This document shows positions 11,478-57,748 of a stretch of 64,000 nucleotides of DNA, piece after piece. The notes below the pieces were generated by a model that saw only the letters and a program-made list of their open reading frames with translations, did not search any database and was not told the DNA's origin. Location: assembly GCA_017548365.1 (NCBI GenBank), contig JAFZAC010000016.1, positions 62,001 to 126,000 on the forward strand. The letters run 5' to 3'. Numbering within the stretch: the first letter of the stretch is position 1; each line of letters starts with the position of its first letter. Source of the stretch: Muribaculaceae bacterium. Its GTDB lineage: Bacteria; Bacteroidota; Bacteroidia; Bacteroidales; Muribaculaceae. The position numbers and the translations under genes are program-made.

Positions 11478-14222
11478 TTAATTGCCCATGAGAATTGAGT
11501 ATATCATTGTAACATCGGAACTTGTTACCGAGCCGTCTCCGTCCACGTCGCTTGTAGCAATAAATGTCTCGTCTCCGTTTAGCAGGTAGTTATAGAGCGC
11601 TGTGATGTCAGCACTTGTTACAACGCCGTCACAATTCACGTCGCCAATTACATGATCGCTAGCCTTGACTGCGGTTACCATAACCACAAAATCGGGAACT
11701 GAGATTTCGGTTTGAGCGTCGGCTGTAGTCATAACCACATTCTTCACAGTGAATTCAGTTGTTCCTATGAAGCTCTGTATAGCTTCAAAGTCAATATTCA
11801 TTATTGCTCCACTGTTTCCTGAGAAATCGGCAGGCGGGAAGCTCACAGCCACTACGCGGATATCTCCATTGGCCTTGGGATTAGCGATAATGTAGTGATT
11901 GTCGCTCATGCGCTCAGTAAGAGCCATGCTGTAGTCACCATTATCGGCTTGCGGGATAGAAAGTTCTAAAGGCAGAGAGATATCAAACTGTACCGCTGCA
12001 ATATTGGTAATTTCATTGTCCATCACAACTGGAACAGTCATTGTCTTTCCCTGTTCAATGCTGAAGTCATCAATGTAGAGGGTATCGACAGGAACATAAG
12101 GTCCACTTGCAGTAACCACAACAGCAAAGTCGTTAACAGTGATGTCACCTTCATTAGTCTTAAGTACCACATTCTTCACATTGATGACGGCAGAACCCGT
12201 GAACTCTCTTGTTGCATTAACTTTCAAATACATTATATTGCCGTCATCACCAGTGAAAGCAGCGGCAGGAACGGCTGCCTCAACAACGTGCATCAGTGAG
12301 CCTTGATCTGAAATGGTAACCATGTGCCCGTTGGCACGCTCCCCAAGCCTTGCTTGATTAGCCACTGTAAGCTCTTGAGGCACTTCAAGGTCAAACTCTA
12401 CAGCGTTGACCACGACAGTCTCGTTGGTGAGTACCACTGGTACTTGCATAGAGCGTCCAGGAGCGATTGCAAAGTCGCTGATGGAAAGGTTATCGCTTGG
12501 AACATATACACCATTGGCAGTTACATTCACATCAAAGTCTTCAATAAGAGTCTCAACCTCATCGGCACTGGTAAGAACCACATCAGCAACATGAATCACG
12601 GCAGTGCCCGAGAAATCGCGGCTTGCAGTGACATTTATGTACATAATGTCGCCCGAGTTTCCAAAGAAATTGACTGTTGGAAAGCTAAACGCAGCGATCG
12701 ATACAGTATTACCACTGGTATTTGCCACCACCTGATGAGAATCACTCTTGCGGTCACTCAGAGTTGCACCATGAACAGTGAGGCCCTCAGGCATCTCCAA
12801 CTTGAGCTGGAAGCCAGCGACAGGAGTAGCCTCGTTGTCCATAATCACTGGCACTTGCATAGTTTGTCCTGGTGTAATCTCAAAGTCGTTGATATAGAAT
12901 AGATTCTCAGGCACATACACGCCATCGGCAGTCACTGTGACATCAAAGTCATCGAGTGTCGTGATGTCGCTGTTAGGCTCAATGAGCCGTACATTGCTCA
13001 CATTGATAACAGTCTGTCCCTCGAATGTGCGGTCGGCAACCACCACAATGTTGAGCACAGCGCCTTCGGTGCCATTAAAGATTCTGCCATATTTGCCATG
13101 GACATCAACCTTTAAGGCATCATCTCCAAGAGGTGTAACTGTCAAGGTATGATTGGGGGCCCTATCGGTCAGTGTAAACGCATCTTCTGTGATTGTTAGC
13201 CCTTGTGGAATAGTCATTTCGAAGCTAAACGAGCAGAACTGAGTCACTTCGTTCTCAAGAAGCACAGGCATAACAACAGTTTTGCCTGGCTTTATTGAGA
13301 AATCTTCAATTGTAAGACGGTCGGTAGGCACATACACACCATTGGCAGCAACGTTAACGTCAAAATCATCAACCGGGCTATCGTGAGCATCGCTAGTGGC
13401 AAGCATCACGTTACGGAATGATATCACAGCACTGCCAGTAAATGACTTGCTCGCCGTGAAATCGATGAACATGATATCACCGCTGTCACCACTGAAGTCG
13501 GCTGTGGGGTATCCAAATGCCACCACGCTCCAATGGTCGCCATTCTTGTTGGCAACCAACTGGTGAGTTTCGCCCTTGCGGTCGCTCAATGTGAACGAGC
13601 TAGCTGTAGTGGTAATGCCTTCTGGCAGATACATGTCGAACTGGAATCCAGCAATTGCACTCGCATGATTGTCGAGAACAACCGGCACATGCAGAGTTGT
13701 TCCAGGGGCGATCTCGAAATCGTCCATGTAAAACTCATTGCCAAGCACTATAAAACCTTGTGCAGTTACTGTCACCGTCAGGTCGGGATGAGAGTGCTCA
13801 TGAGCATCGCTTGTTGTGAGTGCGATATTCTTGACATTAATAACAGCTTGACCTTCAAAGTCTTCGGCAGCCACCACGTCAATGGTCAACACTGCCCCAC
13901 TATTCCCTGTGAAATTAGTGGCAGGAAAACTAAATGCCATCACCGTAATGTGGTCGCCATTAACATTTGTCATCAGTTGGTGCGAACTTGACGCACGCCC
14001 ACTCAACCTGAACCCACCATCGGCGACGCTAAGTCCTGACGGCATGTAAAGGTCAAACTGGAATGCGGCAAAGTCGGTATCAGGATTATCAAGCAAGACC
14101 GGTACTGTGACAGTATCGCCCGCCTTGATTGAAAAATCATCGATGTGCAACTGATTAGCCGCTTGAGCATGCATAGCTACAACCACTAACATTATAGTTA
14201 TAATATGAAATAGCTTTTTCAT
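11478..14222 (-). CDS. Six-module cohesin-like protein with C-terminal dockerin
   Basis: 914 residues: signal peptide, then six ~138-residue beta-sandwich modules at about 24-155, 163-294, 302-434, 441-571, 578-707 and 714-852. Each opens with (I/M)xDFxIxPGxTxxVPVxLDN and contains AxFQFDxxxPxGL, then FSGNSGxIMxI and a final xDFxVxVTAxGxYVP. This is the layout of cohesin domains. Residues 860-914 are a dockerin with two calcium loops (DVNCDGVVTSAD, DVDGDGSVTSSD), ending ILMGN. A chain carrying both cohesins and a dockerin has the architecture of a cellulosomal scaffoldin. No T9SS tail or catalytic domain is visible. It is the last gene of a four-gene secreted-protein locus. Module identity is confident; actual binding to dockerins is inference. 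Confidence 0.85.
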   Translation of the reverse strand: MKKLFHIITIMLVVVAMHAQAANQLHIDDFSIKAGDTVTVPVLLDNPDTDFAAFQFDLYMPSGLSVADGGFRLSGRASSSHQLMTNVNGDHITVMAFSFPATNFTGNSGAVLTIDVVAAEDFEGQAVINVKNIALTTSDAHEHSHPDLTVTVTAQGFIVLGNEFYMDDFEIAPGTTLHVPVVLDNHASAIAGFQFDMYLPEGITTTASSFTLSDRKGETHQLVANKNGDHWSVVAFGYPTADFSGDSGDIMFIDFTASKSFTGSAVISFRNVMLATSDAHDSPVDDFDVNVAANGVYVPTDRLTIEDFSIKPGKTVVMPVLLENEVTQFCSFSFEMTIPQGLTITEDAFTLTDRAPNHTLTVTPLGDDALKVDVHGKYGRIFNGTEGAVLNIVVVADRTFEGQTVINVSNVRLIEPNSDITTLDDFDVTVTADGVYVPENLFYINDFEITPGQTMQVPVIMDNEATPVAGFQLKLEMPEGLTVHGATLSDRKSDSHQVVANTSGNTVSIAAFSFPTVNFFGNSGDIMYINVTASRDFSGTAVIHVADVVLTSADEVETLIEDFDVNVTANGVYVPSDNLSISDFAIAPGRSMQVPVVLTNETVVVNAVEFDLEVPQELTVANQARLGERANGHMVTISDQGSLMHVVEAAVPAAAFTGDDGNIMYLKVNATREFTGSAVINVKNVVLKTNEGDITVNDFAVVVTASGPYVPVDTLYIDDFSIEQGKTMTVPVVMDNEITNIAAVQFDISLPLELSIPQADNGDYSMALTERMSDNHYIIANPKANGDIRVVAVSFPPADFSGNSGAIMNIDFEAIQSFIGTTEFTVKNVVMTTADAQTEISVPDFVVMVTAVKASDHVIGDVNCDGVVTSADITALYNYLLNGDETFIATSDVDGDGSVTSSDVTMIYSILMGN

Positions 14223-14255
14223 ATCTAAAAGAGCTTTTCAATTAAGGAGTGCAAA

Positions 14256-15974
14256 TTATTTTACAAGCACTTTTTTGCCATTTATTACATAGACACCAGT
14301 AGGCAGCCCCTTAGTGGCCTCGGCTGGATCAACGCCTTGACGCAGGAGTACGCCCTTCATGTCATAGACATTAACTCCCTCGCCATCAGTGCCCACTTGG
14401 GCAATAGCTGTAACAACCGAGTTGGTGGTAACATTAGGTAGCACACTCTCCACCTCATTGTACTGAGTGAAGAAAATGTCACTGATGTTCACACTATCGC
14501 TTGAGTCAAGCAAAGATGTAGCTTTCACCTTAAGAATGATAATAGTATCGTTGCCACACGATATTTCATTATTATCGAGCGAGAAGCCAAGTAGACGGAT
14601 AGAGCCATCTGGGTTAACTCCAGTCATCAGGGTATGAGAAGCAGCTCTACCTGTGAGCACTGCGCTCTCCAATGTAAGACCTTGTGGAAGAGTTACATCC
14701 ATCTGGAAACCAGCGTAAGGAGTAGCGTTGTCAAGACTAATAGCTAACGTGCTCGTTTCTGGATCATAGTCACCAAGGCTCAGCACATCGTTGGTAGCAG
14801 CCTTTGGAGCATTGAGCGCAGGCGCTGACGAATTGCCCACAGCGATATTGGCGATTGCAATAAGGTCGGTTATATTAATAGAACCGCTTGCATTCACATC
14901 AGCTGCTTCCTCTACAAACACTTCGGGAGAGATACCCACGATATAGTTGGCCACGCACATAACATCGGTTACATTAACTTTCTTGTCGGCATTCACGTCG
15001 CCAGGGATAGGCAACTCCTCAAATGGCAATGTGCCGCTCTCGAGCACAATCTTAGCATTGCCGCCAATGAATCCCATGCCGTCGCGAACCATGTCGGCAA
15101 GAGTGATATTGCCCATATCAAACACAGTCTCGGAAGTTACCATAGCTTGAGCATACAGATTTGTAAGCACGTCGGCATAACCATCGGCATTGGTTTCCCA
15201 ATTGTAAAGGCAGAAGTGATAAGTAATACCCGTCTGATTGTCCTTATATTGTGCAAGCTCTTGGTTTGGGTTCTCCCAGCTGTTCTTGCCCTCGCTTGGA
15301 GTGTATTCAGGTATAAAACCATAGTCAAGGAAGTTGTAAATTGTCACCTTATTATTATAGTAGTACAAATACACGGGGAACGATACAACTTCGCCAGTAT
15401 TGTAAACGTGGTCATCACTGTCGAAATCAACCTCATCGTAGGTCATAGTAGCGTTGCTTGCGATAAACTGGGTGAACATACCGTTATCGTACATTGCACC
15501 TGCGTTAACGTAAGAATCACTATCAGGGTCATAATAGATGAGAGCCAGATTCCAAGTAGTGGAAATAGTGAAACCGCTAGAGTTAACACGTCCCGAAAGA
15601 CTGGTATTAAGAACGGTGTTTACATCACTATTGTTCACAACCGACTGTGCAACCACATAGAGGTAGCAGGTATAACTTTGATACTGATAGGTGTAAACAC
15701 ACTGTGGCAAGAATGAAATAGTATTAGCACCCCAGTTCACACTGAAAGAGAGATCGCTGCCTTGAGCGAAATAGTTTGACACTGTGACGCGGCTGGTACC
15801 TCCAGTGTAGGCCATTGAAACACGGTTACAACCAATGTTGCCGCCTGTGTAGATGTCACGGTCCATCTCGATGTTAATGCTTGCTAGCTTCTCGGCAGTG
15901 AATGCCGAAGCAGCACGCGACACATTTGCCGTCGCCAGCGCAAGCAAGATGATTGTGAAAAGATATTTTCTCAT
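14256..15974 (-). CDS. Secreted protein with dockerin, cohesin-like domain and T9SS sorting tail
   Basis: 572 residues. After a signal peptide, an unrecognised beta-rich N-terminal region runs to ~320. A dockerin-like pair at ~325-381 (DVNADKKVNVTD, DVNASGSINITD) comes next; the calcium ligands of both loops are partly changed. A cohesin-like module at ~397-526 (YAGFQMDVTLPQGLTLESA) follows, similar to those of the next gene. The last ~43 residues (VNVYDMKGVLLRQG...GLPTGVYVINGKKVLVK) are a type A T9SS C-terminal sorting domain. The protein is thus predicted to be exported through type IX secretion and anchored at the surface. It is 33 bases upstream of the hexa-cohesin gene and 16 bases after its other neighbour. 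Confidence 0.85.
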   Translation of the reverse strand: MRKYLFTIILLALATANVSRAASAFTAEKLASINIEMDRDIYTGGNIGCNRVSMAYTGGTSRVTVSNYFAQGSDLSFSVNWGANTISFLPQCVYTYQYQSYTCYLYVVAQSVVNNSDVNTVLNTSLSGRVNSSGFTISTTWNLALIYYDPDSDSYVNAGAMYDNGMFTQFIASNATMTYDEVDFDSDDHVYNTGEVVSFPVYLYYYNNKVTIYNFLDYGFIPEYTPSEGKNSWENPNQELAQYKDNQTGITYHFCLYNWETNADGYADVLTNLYAQAMVTSETVFDMGNITLADMVRDGMGFIGGNAKIVLESGTLPFEELPIPGDVNADKKVNVTDVMCVANYIVGISPEVFVEEAADVNASGSINITDLIAIANIAVGNSSAPALNAPKAATNDVLSLGDYDPETSTLAISLDNATPYAGFQMDVTLPQGLTLESAVLTGRAASHTLMTGVNPDGSIRLLGFSLDNNEISCGNDTIIILKVKATSLLDSSDSVNISDIFFTQYNEVESVLPNVTTNSVVTAIAQVGTDGEGVNVYDMKGVLLRQGVDPAEATKGLPTGVYVINGKKVLVK

Positions 15975-15990
15975 TTGATTAATATATTAT

Positions 15991-17910
15991 TTATTTATAA
16001 AATTTCTTGAAGGTAGAGCGGTTACCGTTGTCGAAAATCGTGACTACAATGTTCACACCACTGAATGGTGTAGCACTCTCAATGCCCATCATGTTGTAAT
16101 ACTTAACGTCAACAACCTTGCCAGTGCTCTCTATTGTGTTAATGGAAGTAGGCACATCATAGAGTCTAAGAGGATAAACTAGGTAGTCGGCCGAAGCATT
16201 AGCAGTATTAGGTGTTCCTGTAGCTCCATCCTTGAGACTTGGCGCATTGCTTGAACTAGGCACTTTACGCAAAATAGCATCAAACTCATAAATGTAACCG
16301 TTTTGGGGATTGCCACTAGGCAGATAGTCCCAATTAACAGCGATGCCACCAGTCATGTCGCTTGGTGTTTTCTCTGACGGCACATAGAACTTGCCATCAG
16401 CAGCGTTGTAACATGCCCAAGTGATATTAGCATACTCCTGTACCTTAGGAGCAACAAAGAAATATTTGCTTGTTGGCTGATAATATGCTTCGTTAAAGCT
16501 AGGCATGATATAGAGGTTGGGGTCGTAGTTATGTGCTTCACCCATTTTGGGGTTAGAAGTCACAGCGATAGTCGGGTTAACCTTGTCAACAAGTTTACCT
16601 GTAATGCTCTTGCCTTTTATTATCTTGCCTACATAGTTATTGGCATTGGCAACACCGGTGAGCATCACCCAATTGCTTTGGTCATAGTTAGCTGCTGGAT
16701 GCTTGCCAACTTCACCCATAAATTCAGCGTTCACATTACCCATAAAGTCAATTTGATTCTCACCTAGCACTGATGGGTATTTATACTTGCCCATGTCTTT
16801 AGCAAAAAGCACGTCACCCATTGTTACTGGATAATCATTGCTTGAGGGACCATAACGGTTAGAATTAACATAATCCCATCCACCTTGGTCATTGTTTTGC
16901 GCCAGAGCACTTGTTATACTGAAATAGTTCTTGTTGTTGCTTCCACCATTGAAGTTTACTACAACGCTATAATGCACACCGTCAGTGGTCTCCATGGGCT
17001 GACCAACAGTAGGATTCCAGCTATTACCGTTAGCCTCTCCTAAAACATAGTAAGTAGGATAACTGCCATTATTAACATAACCTGTCACCTGTTCGGCACT
17101 TTGAGACACAGTGAGCGCGTTGGCACTCAAATCCAAGTCAAGTCTGTATCTGCCCTTGTCAATCTCAAATGTGTTTTGATTTTTGCTCACTCCCATAGGA
17201 GCACTCAGCACACCGTCAACAGTGGCGACACCAACAAGGTCATCGTTGACGGTGTATTCCTCACCAGGTTCTCCGTCGTTAACGATGTCAACGAGATTAG
17301 TAGCGGTAAAAACTGAATGTTCAAAATACTCTACAACACGAGAACTACTTGGGGTATACCAATAAGTTCCTTGTGCCACAACCAATCCCCATGGATCGTC
17401 AAGAGTAATTTCTCCTTTTTCAAGGTCAATGGTACCATGACAATCGGCACCGCCATCGTAAGTGTAATAAACTCTTTGATTATATATAGTAGTAACTCCT
17501 TGTTGATAATACTTCATATGAGCAACCAAAGCATGTTGATAGCCAGTATAACCAAATTTAGTGGTCTTGCCTAAATATGCAACACGCCATGTAAAACTTG
17601 CTTTTGTATCACTCTGCCATGTCAAACTAGTAGCACTCACACCATAATTAATAGGCAGATTCACCATAGCTGAAGTGCTACTAACCACATCTGTATTCCA
17701 ATAAAAATGATTGAATGTCAGTTGCTCAGTCGCAGCATCCCAAACCACAGTTACCTTATTGGTTCTTACAATTTCACTACCTCGATAGTCTTTTTGCAGA
17801 TAAATCTGTGTAAATGACTCTGGCTGCGCTTTTGCGCTATTATTTGGCGCAACTGTTGAGAATAATGACATTGCGGCAAATAATAATGAATAAGTAAATA
17901 ATTTTCTCAT
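15991..17910 (-). CDS. Secreted protein, long paralogue of the neighbouring 271-aa protein
   Basis: 639 residues with a signal peptide ending near NSAKAQ. Residues ~34-215 closely match the whole mature 271-residue protein encoded just upstream in the operon. Shared motifs are QPESF, DYRG, VVWDAAT, LTWQSDTKASFTWR, GGADCHGTIDLEKG and VVEYFEHS. The last ~50 residues (VKYYNMMGIESATPFSGVNIV) also match and resemble a T9SS sorting tail. Between them lies a ~370-residue stretch absent from the shorter copy, rich in aromatic and Asn residues. I do not recognise the N-terminal domain. Likely surface-exposed; function unknown. Confidence 0.78.
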   Translation of the reverse strand: MRKLFTYSLLFAAMSLFSTVAPNNSAKAQPESFTQIYLQKDYRGSEIVRTNKVTVVWDAATEQLTFNHFYWNTDVVSSTSAMVNLPINYGVSATSLTWQSDTKASFTWRVAYLGKTTKFGYTGYQHALVAHMKYYQQGVTTIYNQRVYYTYDGGADCHGTIDLEKGEITLDDPWGLVVAQGTYWYTPSSSRVVEYFEHSVFTATNLVDIVNDGEPGEEYTVNDDLVGVATVDGVLSAPMGVSKNQNTFEIDKGRYRLDLDLSANALTVSQSAEQVTGYVNNGSYPTYYVLGEANGNSWNPTVGQPMETTDGVHYSVVVNFNGGSNNKNYFSITSALAQNNDQGGWDYVNSNRYGPSSNDYPVTMGDVLFAKDMGKYKYPSVLGENQIDFMGNVNAEFMGEVGKHPAANYDQSNWVMLTGVANANNYVGKIIKGKSITGKLVDKVNPTIAVTSNPKMGEAHNYDPNLYIMPSFNEAYYQPTSKYFFVAPKVQEYANITWACYNAADGKFYVPSEKTPSDMTGGIAVNWDYLPSGNPQNGYIYEFDAILRKVPSSSNAPSLKDGATGTPNTANASADYLVYPLRLYDVPTSINTIESTGKVVDVKYYNMMGIESATPFSGVNIVVTIFDNGNRSTFKKFYK

Positions 17911-18011: not shown

Positions 18012-18827
18012 TTATCTCATTAGTTGCTTAGTAACAGTTTTTTGTCCGTTGTCAAGCTCATTAACAATAATGTTCACACCATTGAAAGGAGTAGACGATT
18101 CAACACCTAGAGTGTTATAGTAACGAGTATTCACTACTTGAGCATCGCTGTTGACATTATTAATGGCTGTGTTGACACGTGTCATCTCTGACCTCTCAAA
18201 GTACTCAATTACAACTGTAGCACTCATGGTGTTCCAATTGTTATTGCCAACCACGCACCCCCAAGGGTCGGTAATTTCAATAGTTCCTGCGGCAATATCG
18301 ATAGTACCATGACAATCTTGTCCACCATAATAAGCATAATAGCTGGTTGGGTCAATGGTGTTAGCTACAGGGTCATAAATTCTAACAGGATTTCCCACAT
18401 GTTGGAACCTGCTTACTACAGCATTCTTATAGTTCTTGAAACTGCTGTAAGAGAAAGGCAAACTCTCTAGCACATCACTCTGACCCATATAGCAAGCGCG
18501 CCAAGTGAAATTTGCCTTGGTGTCGCTTTCCCATGTCAAAGTAGTTGGACTTGAAGTTTCGGTAGCATAAGAAGGAAAAACAAGATTTACAACTTGATCG
18601 TTCACCAAGTCGTTAGCATAGAAGTTGTTGAACGTCAACACACCAGTAGAAGCGTTCCACACAACATTGAGAGTATTAGTTCTTACCAAATCTTCACCGC
18701 GATAGTCTTGCTGAGTGAAGTTGTAGTTAAACGACTCGGGCTGTGCACTTGCCGTGAAACCCATAAATTTACCCCCTGCTACAATTAATAGGGCCATTAA
18801 TCCAGATAGAGTAAAAAATCTTTTCAT
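18012..18827 (-). CDS. Secreted protein, short paralogue with sorting-type tail
   Basis: 271 residues, the first gene of the minus-strand locus that continues to the cohesin protein. It has a signal peptide ending near FTASAQ, a mature domain (~30-215) of unrecognised family and a tail (TRYYNTLGVESSTPFNGVNII...NGQKTVTKQLMR) resembling T9SS-associated C-terminal sorting sequences. It is homologous to both ends of the 639-residue neighbour. The Cys in QDCHGTID is conserved in both. Secretion is well supported; activity is unknown. Confidence 0.78.
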   Translation of the reverse strand: MKRFFTLSGLMALLIVAGGKFMGFTASAQPESFNYNFTQQDYRGEDLVRTNTLNVVWNASTGVLTFNNFYANDLVNDQVVNLVFPSYATETSSPTTLTWESDTKANFTWRACYMGQSDVLESLPFSYSSFKNYKNAVVSRFQHVGNPVRIYDPVANTIDPTSYYAYYGGQDCHGTIDIAAGTIEITDPWGCVVGNNNWNTMSATVVIEYFERSEMTRVNTAINNVNSDAQVVNTRYYNTLGVESSTPFNGVNIIVNELDNGQKTVTKQLMR

Positions 18828-55318: not shown

Positions 55319-57748
55319 ATGAAGAAAGCATTACTGTTAATTACATTATCACTAAGCCTAAGCTGCAATTTGATGATGGCTGGGATAAACATTGGTGGCA
55401 CAGTATACAACGCCGACACCATCATGCGCCGCCAAGTGGGACCGGGTATCTACAACACAATCATCCGCATTCCCGATTATCCGCTTAACGTCTATCTACT
55501 TGAGGCCGACATGACTAATCCTTACAACCGTGTAGAAACAACTATCGGATACAACACATTAGGCCGAACAGAACTGCTCACAAACGCCTATCACCGCAAT
55601 CGCACTGAAACACGCCGCCCTATCGCAGCTTGCAATGCTAACTTCTGGTGCGTGACAGGCAATGGTTCGCCCACGATGGACTTTGAACTCGGCGACCCAT
55701 TTGGCGCTGTGGTCCGTAACGACAGTGTGTATCTCAATACTGAGACCAATGCCGATGCTTGGAACGGAGGTCCTTCACGCACTGGCGCTTGCGCCATCAC
55801 TCAAGACAAAACTCTTTACTTCGGACACTTCAATTGCGGAGGAACATTATCCTCGCCAAAACTAGCTGCTGCTGCACCATTGAACACGGTGAACCGCCGC
55901 AATCTGCCTCACACCGCAGTACTATGGACACCTGCCTTCACCCGAACTCGTGAATTTGAGACCAATTGGGTGGATTACAACGAGAAAGGCGTTGCCGATG
56001 CCGACAACTATTATCTCACTTTCAACGAAGGCAGCCGTTGGCTCGTAAACCAGGATATGCATTTCACTATAGCCCATGTGGTGAAGAATGCCGACCGCCA
56101 GACTCTGGGCGACTACGATGCATGCATCACTGCCACAGGGTTGATGAAAGACTACCTCGCCACTCTCGAAGAGGGAGATGTCATTACAATCAACCATGGA
56201 TGGACCTATAATGAGGAGAACCAGTTTACGCCACTCATCGAGAACATGGTAGAAGGAAATGCCCCTGTAATGCACAACGGCGAACTCACAGGTCGCAACA
56301 ACGACGAGAGCTATAACTCGATGATCTACAGCCGCACAGCCTACGGCTGCGATGCAACTGGAAAGAAGCTCTACATGATTGTCATCGACAAATCGACAAG
56401 CAGATACTATGGCACCAGCGCCGGTTGCTCCACAACTGTGATGTGCCAAATTCTTAAAGACCTCTACCCTGACATTAGCGAAGTTGTTAACATGGATGCT
56501 GGAGGCTCGGCCGAGATGATGGTAGACGGAAAAATCATTAATACCACAACCGAAGGCACTCCTCGCTCTGTAGCATGCGGATGGATGCTTGAGACAGAGG
56601 CACCAGCCGACAGCACTATTACATCTATCCAATTCTATGACTACCGTGCCGACCTGCCTATCTACTCGTCATATACCCCTCGAATTGTGGGATTTAACCA
56701 ATATGGTGAAGTGGTTGACGACAATGTATCAGGCTTTACCCTGTCCTGTGATGAATCAATGGGTATTACCGAAGGGTCAACACTAAACTTAGGCGGGAAT
56801 GTTGGTGAAGGCATTCTTACAGCTGACTTGAATGGTATGACTGCTTCAGTGCTTGTAAGAACACTTGAGGCGCAACCTGCTATTGCCATGAAGCCCATGA
56901 TTTATGTCGACAGTCGAGAATTCCCCATTGAAGTGAGTGCCACGATTTATGGTAAAAAATACTATTATGACGGAGCCAAACTCACTTGGGATATTGATGA
57001 CCCAAGCATCGCAAGTGTCATTGATGGCAAAATCAAAGGCATTAAGAACGGCAAAACGGCACTGTCGTGTATAATAGGCAACTATATAGATAACGACAGC
57101 ATCACAGTTGAAATTAGCAACAAAGAATACATTGAGCAAACATGGGACGGATGGGCACTAAAAGGTGCAGGAGCCAAGAATCTTATACTCGATGAGGATG
57201 GCAACCTGTCTTTCACCTATAGCTCCAATCGCGCTCCCTACATACAGCTTTCTAAAGATATCACTTTCTACAGCTTACCAGATAGTATCTCATTGACATT
57301 CACAAGCACACTTCCAATGCAATATGTCCAAATTGATGTGAGAAACACCGTCCTGAACAAGCTCAATTATCTTGAGTTTGGAAAGAACACTGGTTTTGAA
57401 GCCAATCAGGAATATACCCTGAATTTTGACCTAAATGCCATGGGCGGACTTGACAATCTGCTCACCTATCCCTTGAGCCTTCACACAATCAAGTTTACAC
57501 CAGTGAAGAGTAACTTTGGTGAACACGTTATCCAACTAAAGTCGCTAAAAGCACATTATCCTGTTGTAAGCGCTACGCCTGGTGATGTAAACGGTGACGG
57601 CATTGTGTCAAGTGTTGACGTGACAGCACTTTACAACTATTTGCTTAACGGCGACAGCAGCGCTATTGTCAATGGCGACCAAGATGGCGACGGCATCATC
57701 ACCTCGGTTGATATTACCATTATTTATAATATATTGCTTGGAAATTAA
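55319..57748 (+). CDS. Secreted NAGPA-like phosphodiester glycosidase with dockerin
   Basis: 809 residues. A signal peptide is followed by a phosphodiester glycosidase (NAGPA/DUF2233) domain to ~430, with NANFWCVTGNGSP, the DAGGSAEMMVDGKIINTTTEG hallmark and PRSVACGWML. A Big2-like Ig domain (~540-600: LTWDIDDPSIASVIDGKIKG), a beta-rich module and a C-terminal dockerin at 755-809 (DVNGDGIVSSVD, DQDGDGIITSVD, ending NILLGN) complete it. NAGPA-type enzymes cleave GlcNAc from phosphodiester links; the bacterial substrate is unknown. The dockerin is closely similar to that of the hexa-cohesin protein. sodB starts 14 bases later. Confidence 0.88.
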   Translation: MKKALLLITLSLSLSCNLMMAGINIGGTVYNADTIMRRQVGPGIYNTIIRIPDYPLNVYLLEADMTNPYNRVETTIGYNTLGRTELLTNAYHRNRTETRRPIAACNANFWCVTGNGSPTMDFELGDPFGAVVRNDSVYLNTETNADAWNGGPSRTGACAITQDKTLYFGHFNCGGTLSSPKLAAAAPLNTVNRRNLPHTAVLWTPAFTRTREFETNWVDYNEKGVADADNYYLTFNEGSRWLVNQDMHFTIAHVVKNADRQTLGDYDACITATGLMKDYLATLEEGDVITINHGWTYNEENQFTPLIENMVEGNAPVMHNGELTGRNNDESYNSMIYSRTAYGCDATGKKLYMIVIDKSTSRYYGTSAGCSTTVMCQILKDLYPDISEVVNMDAGGSAEMMVDGKIINTTTEGTPRSVACGWMLETEAPADSTITSIQFYDYRADLPIYSSYTPRIVGFNQYGEVVDDNVSGFTLSCDESMGITEGSTLNLGGNVGEGILTADLNGMTASVLVRTLEAQPAIAMKPMIYVDSREFPIEVSATIYGKKYYYDGAKLTWDIDDPSIASVIDGKIKGIKNGKTALSCIIGNYIDNDSITVEISNKEYIEQTWDGWALKGAGAKNLILDEDGNLSFTYSSNRAPYIQLSKDITFYSLPDSISLTFTSTLPMQYVQIDVRNTVLNKLNYLEFGKNTGFEANQEYTLNFDLNAMGGLDNLLTYPLSLHTIKFTPVKSNFGEHVIQLKSLKAHYPVVSATPGDVNGDGIVSSVDVTALYNYLLNGDSSAIVNGDQDGDGIITSVDITIIYNILLGN

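Follow-up and report, generated by a model that had tools for sequence, protein, structure and literature searches.

The window analysed here, a stretch of 64,000 nucleotides from a Muribaculaceae bacterium, holds genes that we read, with a probability of roughly 0.68, as parts of a system by which a bacterium with an outer membrane displays proteins through cohesin-dockerin docking. It would be a variant of the cellulosome principle in which the sockets are anchored through the type IX secretion system (T9SS). In this system a few genes that combine cohesin sockets with a T9SS tail would set the sockets on the cell surface, and a six-cohesin scaffold would plug its own dockerin into these tailed sockets to multiply their number. 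About 90 Sec-exported dockerin proteins, comprising adhesins, proteases and some glycosidases, would dock on the anchors or on the scaffold, with these cohesins binding these dockerins at what we infer to be their final place, the outer surface. Retention by docking would replace a tail of the protein's own, the dockerin of the proteases taking the position that a T9SS-type tail has in sister genera.

The scaffold gene (positions 11478..14222 of the window, minus strand) encodes a protein of 914 amino acids in which a signal peptide is followed by six cohesins and a dockerin; it has no T9SS tail, and no CBM was found in it. The six modules are 136-143 aa each and share 33-53% identity with one another. 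On the same strand, M1 (residues 23-161) occupies 13740..14156 and is followed by M2 at 13323..13739 (45% identity with M1), M3 at 12906..13322 (42%), M4 at 12495..12905 (46%, and 53% with M2), M5 at 12087..12494 (38%) and M6 at 11658..12086 (45%). The C-terminal dockerin (residues 860-907; 11502..11645, minus strand) matches PF00404 with 47.3 bits (E 2.5e-12). The first-pass annotation had described this chain as six cohesin-like modules with a terminal dockerin, an architecture confirmed by the dockerin match, by the homology of the modules and by the match of M1 to the Pfam Cohesin family. Its suggestion to search each module singly against PF00963 was borne out for M1, which at 29.4 bits exceeds the curated cut-off of 24.1 bits, but not for the others: M2 falls just under it at 20.9 bits, and M3-M6 and the module of the neighbouring anchor gene gave no PF00963 match when searched singly with Pfam, though they are homologous to M1.

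Structure prediction places M1 among the cohesins. The AlphaFold2 model, which rests on an alignment of 44 module sequences, has a pLDDT of 96.2 and a pTM of 0.87 and shows the jelly-roll beta-sandwich of the cohesin fold. When it was compared with the PDB by Foldseek, all 50 matches listed were cohesins, and the top matches among these 50 (TM 0.77-0.79) came from cohesin-dockerin complexes. Placement of the modules in a different Ig-like fold, which had been named beforehand as the result that would overturn the proposal, is ruled out for M1 by these 50 matches, and the comparison favours cohesin. A sequence-profile search of the PDB with the modules gave weak matches (E 0.002-0.02), the best five being a scaffoldin cohesin and NagJ cohesin-like modules. 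A strand motif, [AG]-F-Q-x-D, is kept across the modules (Q in 40/44, D in 37/44) at what we take to be the position where type I cohesins touch the dockerin.

The neighbouring anchor, or socket, gene (14256..15974, minus strand; 572 aa) combines an N-terminal region of no assigned family with a dockerin, a cohesin and a T9SS-like tail. Its dockerin (residues 324-375; 14850..15005, minus strand) scores 40.1 bits against PF00404, and its model matches the dockerin 6kgf_B with a TM of 0.90 (1.2 A over 59 columns). The sequence is divergent (GDVNADKKVNVTDV...) and departs from the consensus of the scaffold and enzyme dockerins. The cohesin module (14433..14792, minus strand) has 20-29% identity with the scaffold modules, and the cohesin part of the model matches the cohesins 2xdh and 2jh2. 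The model of the full chain is poor, with a mean pLDDT of 52 and an N-terminal half without confidence. The C-terminal tail (14259..14390, minus strand) resembles the T9SS type A signal and is of a kind common to three paralogous dockerin-cohesin genes. Thus, of what had been proposed for this gene, the dockerin and the cohesin-like module stand, but the tail, T9SS-like as it is, reaches only 16.9 bits with TIGR04183 against a curated cut-off of 23.

The anchor and scaffold are the last two of four genes that run on one strand from 18827 to 11478 with gaps of 101, 16 and 33 bases. Cluster gene 1 (18012..18827, minus strand; 271 aa) and cluster gene 2 (15991..17910, minus strand; 639 aa) had no match in Pfam and NCBIfam searches. 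Gene 2 ends in a T9SS-tail-like sequence, GVNIVV...DG...KK, and gene 1 has a tail of the same kind. The fuller motif YYN..G.....PF.GVNIVV..YDNG....KK recurs at the C-termini of both cluster genes, of a C10 protease of the same genome (L258:1411-6627) and in a related genome (G079, L259:3023-4120). It looks like a further variant of the T9SS tail that the curated models miss.

Dockerins extend far beyond the window. A genome-wide PF00404 search returned 100 matches, with 96 genes or fragments above the cut-off; adding one just under it, we read about 97 dockerin ORFs, a count that was taken from the best 150 of 160 candidates and may be slightly low. The system is therefore far larger than the first-pass annotation, which had proposed such a count, had it. 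The dockerin lies at the C-terminus in 66 of the ~97 ORFs and right behind the signal peptide in about 13; the remainder have it internally or are truncated at a contig end. Two calcium loops are present in 92/97, spaced by 31 aa in 84 of those. Nearly all complete dockerin ORFs have a signal-peptide-like start, and a simple pattern search saw no lipobox in them, which speaks against lipoprotein anchoring of the dockerin proteins. The cohesin profile found ten modules in five genes of the genome. Besides scaffold and anchor these are three contig 2 genes, each with a dockerin, a cohesin and a T9SS-like tail. All five cohesin genes carry a dockerin and four of the five a T9SS-like tail; the scaffold itself and most dockerin proteins have no T9SS tail. 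The T9SS machinery is represented by SprA (TIGR04189, 2710 bits). At one locus (L064, G000:C41:52243-69406) seven dockerin genes form a same-strand run in which three encode related C10 proteases.

Within the window, the dockerin cargo is represented by a NAGPA-type phosphodiester glycosidase (55319..57748, plus strand; PF09992 E 7.8e-13, PF00404 E 2e-10). Its dockerin (57578..57739, plus strand; C11:119578-119739 in the genome) scores 41.2 bits with PF00404, is C-terminal and belongs to the same class as that of the scaffold, as had been noticed from the letters. The loops of the scaffold dockerin are of the class of the enzyme dockerins in general, and since it shares their consensus, one specificity common to scaffold and enzyme dockerins appears likely from the loop comparison. 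The cargo families include BspA-type LRR, Peptidase C10 with Spi inhibitor, FGE-like, CotH, CBM26, amidase_3, M6, S8 and NAGPA; BspA-type LRR proteins, C10, M6 and S8 proteases, FGE-like and CotH proteins make up most of the cargo. Glycosidases are few, namely GHL10, GH13, GH18 and GH53 besides NAGPA. The complete family lists (E 1e-7), drawn up for the cargo other than C10, FGE and most LRR proteins, show no GH5, 8, 9, 10, 11, 26, 43 or 48 and no cellulase or xylanase family. FGE-sulfatase-like (SUMF1) domains are fused to a dockerin nine times in the genome, often directly behind the signal peptide (L243, L246, L247, L248, L251, L252, L255, L257 and others).

The C10 proteases allow their C-termini to be compared across genera. 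Homologues occur in 116 of the 149 genomes of our family sample, which includes ten of the organism's own genus. Eight of the nine C10 proteins of the genome carry a dockerin and one (C19, L258) a T9SS-like tail, of the kind found on cluster genes 1 and 2. Elsewhere in the genus, the best loci gave five complete C10 proteins with a terminal dockerin (L179, L180, L181, L184, L186); L182 has a terminal dockerin too, but Pfam counts make it an S8-type protein, not C10. In G079 (L259) the C10 frame lacks a terminal dockerin and the overlapping next ORF bears the other tail, a split that is perhaps a frameshift. In other genera, none of 16 complete C10 proteins has a dockerin; eight match TIGR04183, six match PF18962, and further C-termini are T9SS-like by eye. 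The two forms can be close relatives: within the organism's own genome, L163, with a T9SS-like tail, and C20:91312, with a dockerin, share 58% identity over 451 aa. There was no pure exchange of tails, because the two forms also differ in the domains that lie between catalytic part and C-terminus, and an all-or-none swap is ruled out by L258 with its T9SS-like tail and L259 without a dockerin. The idea that T9SS tails are rarer in the genus than in its sister genera is unsupported, the 3-12 matches to PF18962 lying inside the family range.

These C-termini also bear on where the dockerin proteins reside. The scaffold and most of the cargo have a Sec-type signal peptide alone, as would be expected if dockerin proteins assembled in the periplasm on the tail-less scaffold. 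We consider such a location improbable: C10, M6 and S8 proteases, BspA-type LRR adhesins and GH13 and GH53 enzymes are typically extracellular, the tails on four of the five cohesin genes are T9SS-like, and the C10 homologues of sister genera bear T9SS-type tails. Slightly less probable again is that the type IX machinery recognises the dockerin directly as a sorting signal, the cohesins being incidental. The very C-terminal dockerin of those 66 ORFs and its presence in place of a T9SS-type tail in most C10 proteases of the genus would fit such a signal, but the roughly 13 dockerins behind the signal peptide and the further internal ones would not. Moreover, the dockerin has an EF-hand-like fold, different from the beta-sandwich of the T9SS tail, and dockerins and cohesins are found together in every one of the sampled genus members.

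In a search with the scaffold protein as query, the nearest named genomes are MAGs labelled Muribaculaceae, Prevotellaceae or Bacteroidales bacterium, several of them from projects on the rumen (goat, water buffalo, red deer, RUG). Orthologues of the scaffold (71-84% identity) and of the anchor (74-90%) were found in nine species, and in these the four genes follow one another as gene 1, gene 2, anchor and scaffold; cluster gene 1 was seen upstream in 8/9 loci, the L149 locus starting inside the cluster. One scaffold (L156:8555-10453) has 632 aa against 914 and, not counting the anchor module, four cohesin matches, so the number of modules differs among species. All ten sampled genomes of the genus have at least 39-40 dockerins and 2-15 cohesins. 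The family's other genomes have 0-6 dockerins each, except G001, of another genus, with 30; more than six occur solely in the genus and this one further genome, which rules out dockerins as a family-wide trait. Cohesin-like modules are also present in 24 family genomes that are poor in dockerins, and the module may therefore have an older role. These genomes, and the existence of cohesin-like modules that have no known dockerin partner, lend something to the view that the modules are structural or adhesive repeats that do not bind these dockerins, but we give it as little credence as a directly read signal, since cohesins track dockerin numbers in the family (12/13 against 24/136 genomes) and in the order, and the [AG]-F-Q-x-D motif is conserved.

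The order-wide comparison covered 51 hand-chosen genomes. Cohesins were detected with profile A6 in 9/19 genomes with at least three dockerins versus 1/32 with fewer (p 2e-4), and in 6/13 versus 1/31 after collapsing by genus (p 0.0014). The sample is hand-chosen, relatedness is left in and cohesin genes often bear a dockerin themselves, and we therefore regard this co-occurrence as supportive only. In the dockerin-rich G001, G241, G342 and f119 genomes profile A6 found no cohesin; these may have different sockets, overlooked cohesins or partnerless dockerins. Dockerin-rich genomes appear sporadically in further Bacteroidales families, and cohesin scaffolds of five to at least ten modules were observed in other families as well (L228, L229, L230, L232, L233, L234, L237), so that a trait unique to the genus is ruled out. 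L228 (G151) holds two complete scaffolds, with eight and five cohesins, both with T9SS-like tails at the end. In L232-L234, from three genomes of one genus, a gene with a dockerin and a T9SS-like tail directly precedes a five-cohesin scaffold.

How the tail-less dockerin proteins might be exported is a guess: they could travel piggy-back, with or through the tailed cohesin anchors. A wider proposal, which we put forward tentatively and rate well below the display system itself, is that the dockerin serves the genus as a general surface tag beside T9SS tails, with export by or with tailed cohesin proteins, and that similar systems arose in several Bacteroidales families.

The genes were first noted for following the logic of a cellulosome, and that comparison holds in part. 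As in the cellulosomes of C. thermocellum and R. flavefaciens, there are a multi-cohesin scaffold with a dockerin, a cohesin predicted to lie at the cell surface and many dockerin proteins. Unlike in those systems, the envelope has an outer membrane, no cellulase families were seen in the cargo, glycosidases of the plant cell wall are not its main component and the scaffold has no CBM. Clostridial cellulosomes keep the anchoring specificity separate through type I/II pairs, whereas the scaffold dockerin here shares its class with the enzyme dockerins and by sequence gives no sign of a separate anchoring specificity; the anchor dockerin differs from both. Few cohesins serving many dockerins recalls the R. 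bromii amylosome and R. albus, in which a single cohesin is thought to keep separate enzymes on the surface (PMC6118326), but both are Gram-positive, and the present system is set apart by its T9SS link and its broad, mostly non-GH cargo.

The nearest precedent is the cellulosome-like complex predicted for Candidatus Stygibacter of the Cloacimonadota, which has a scaffoldin with tandem cohesins and a T9SS C-terminal domain, and whose secreted peptidases and glycoside hydrolases bear dockerins at the C-terminus; there too the cargo, by prediction only, is proteolytic and directed at chitin and starch, not cellulolytic (PMC8542988). Ca. Stygibacter has a handful of named dockerin proteins and one scaffoldin of 3,755 aa with CBMs and its own tail (PMC8542988), in contrast to the ~97 dockerins, the tail-less scaffold with its own dockerin, the separate tailed socket genes, the conserved four-gene cluster and the dockerins in place of relatives' T9SS tails described here. 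Bacteroidetes bins from a camel rumen metagenome have dockerins, about 11 per listed bin, with cohesins in certain Bacteroidetes, and the portions of that report available to us describe no mechanism, gene cluster or T9SS link (PMC6071333). A study of T9SS Bacteroidetes did not find cohesins or dockerins, in keeping with other Bacteroidetes genomes (PMC5831590), and in the Hungate1000 paper cellulosomes are mainly a feature of Ruminococcaceae. Cohesin-dockerin systems in outer-membrane cells are barely described in the open-licence literature, although a published account may exist elsewhere.

Cellulosomes have been described mainly from Clostridiales. A genus with ~97 dockerins, cohesin sockets and a T9SS would carry cohesin-dockerin assembly into a dominant rumen phylum and would also widen it to non-cellulolytic cargo. 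It would raise a testable question as well, namely by what route about 90 dockerin proteins that lack a T9SS tail cross the outer membrane.
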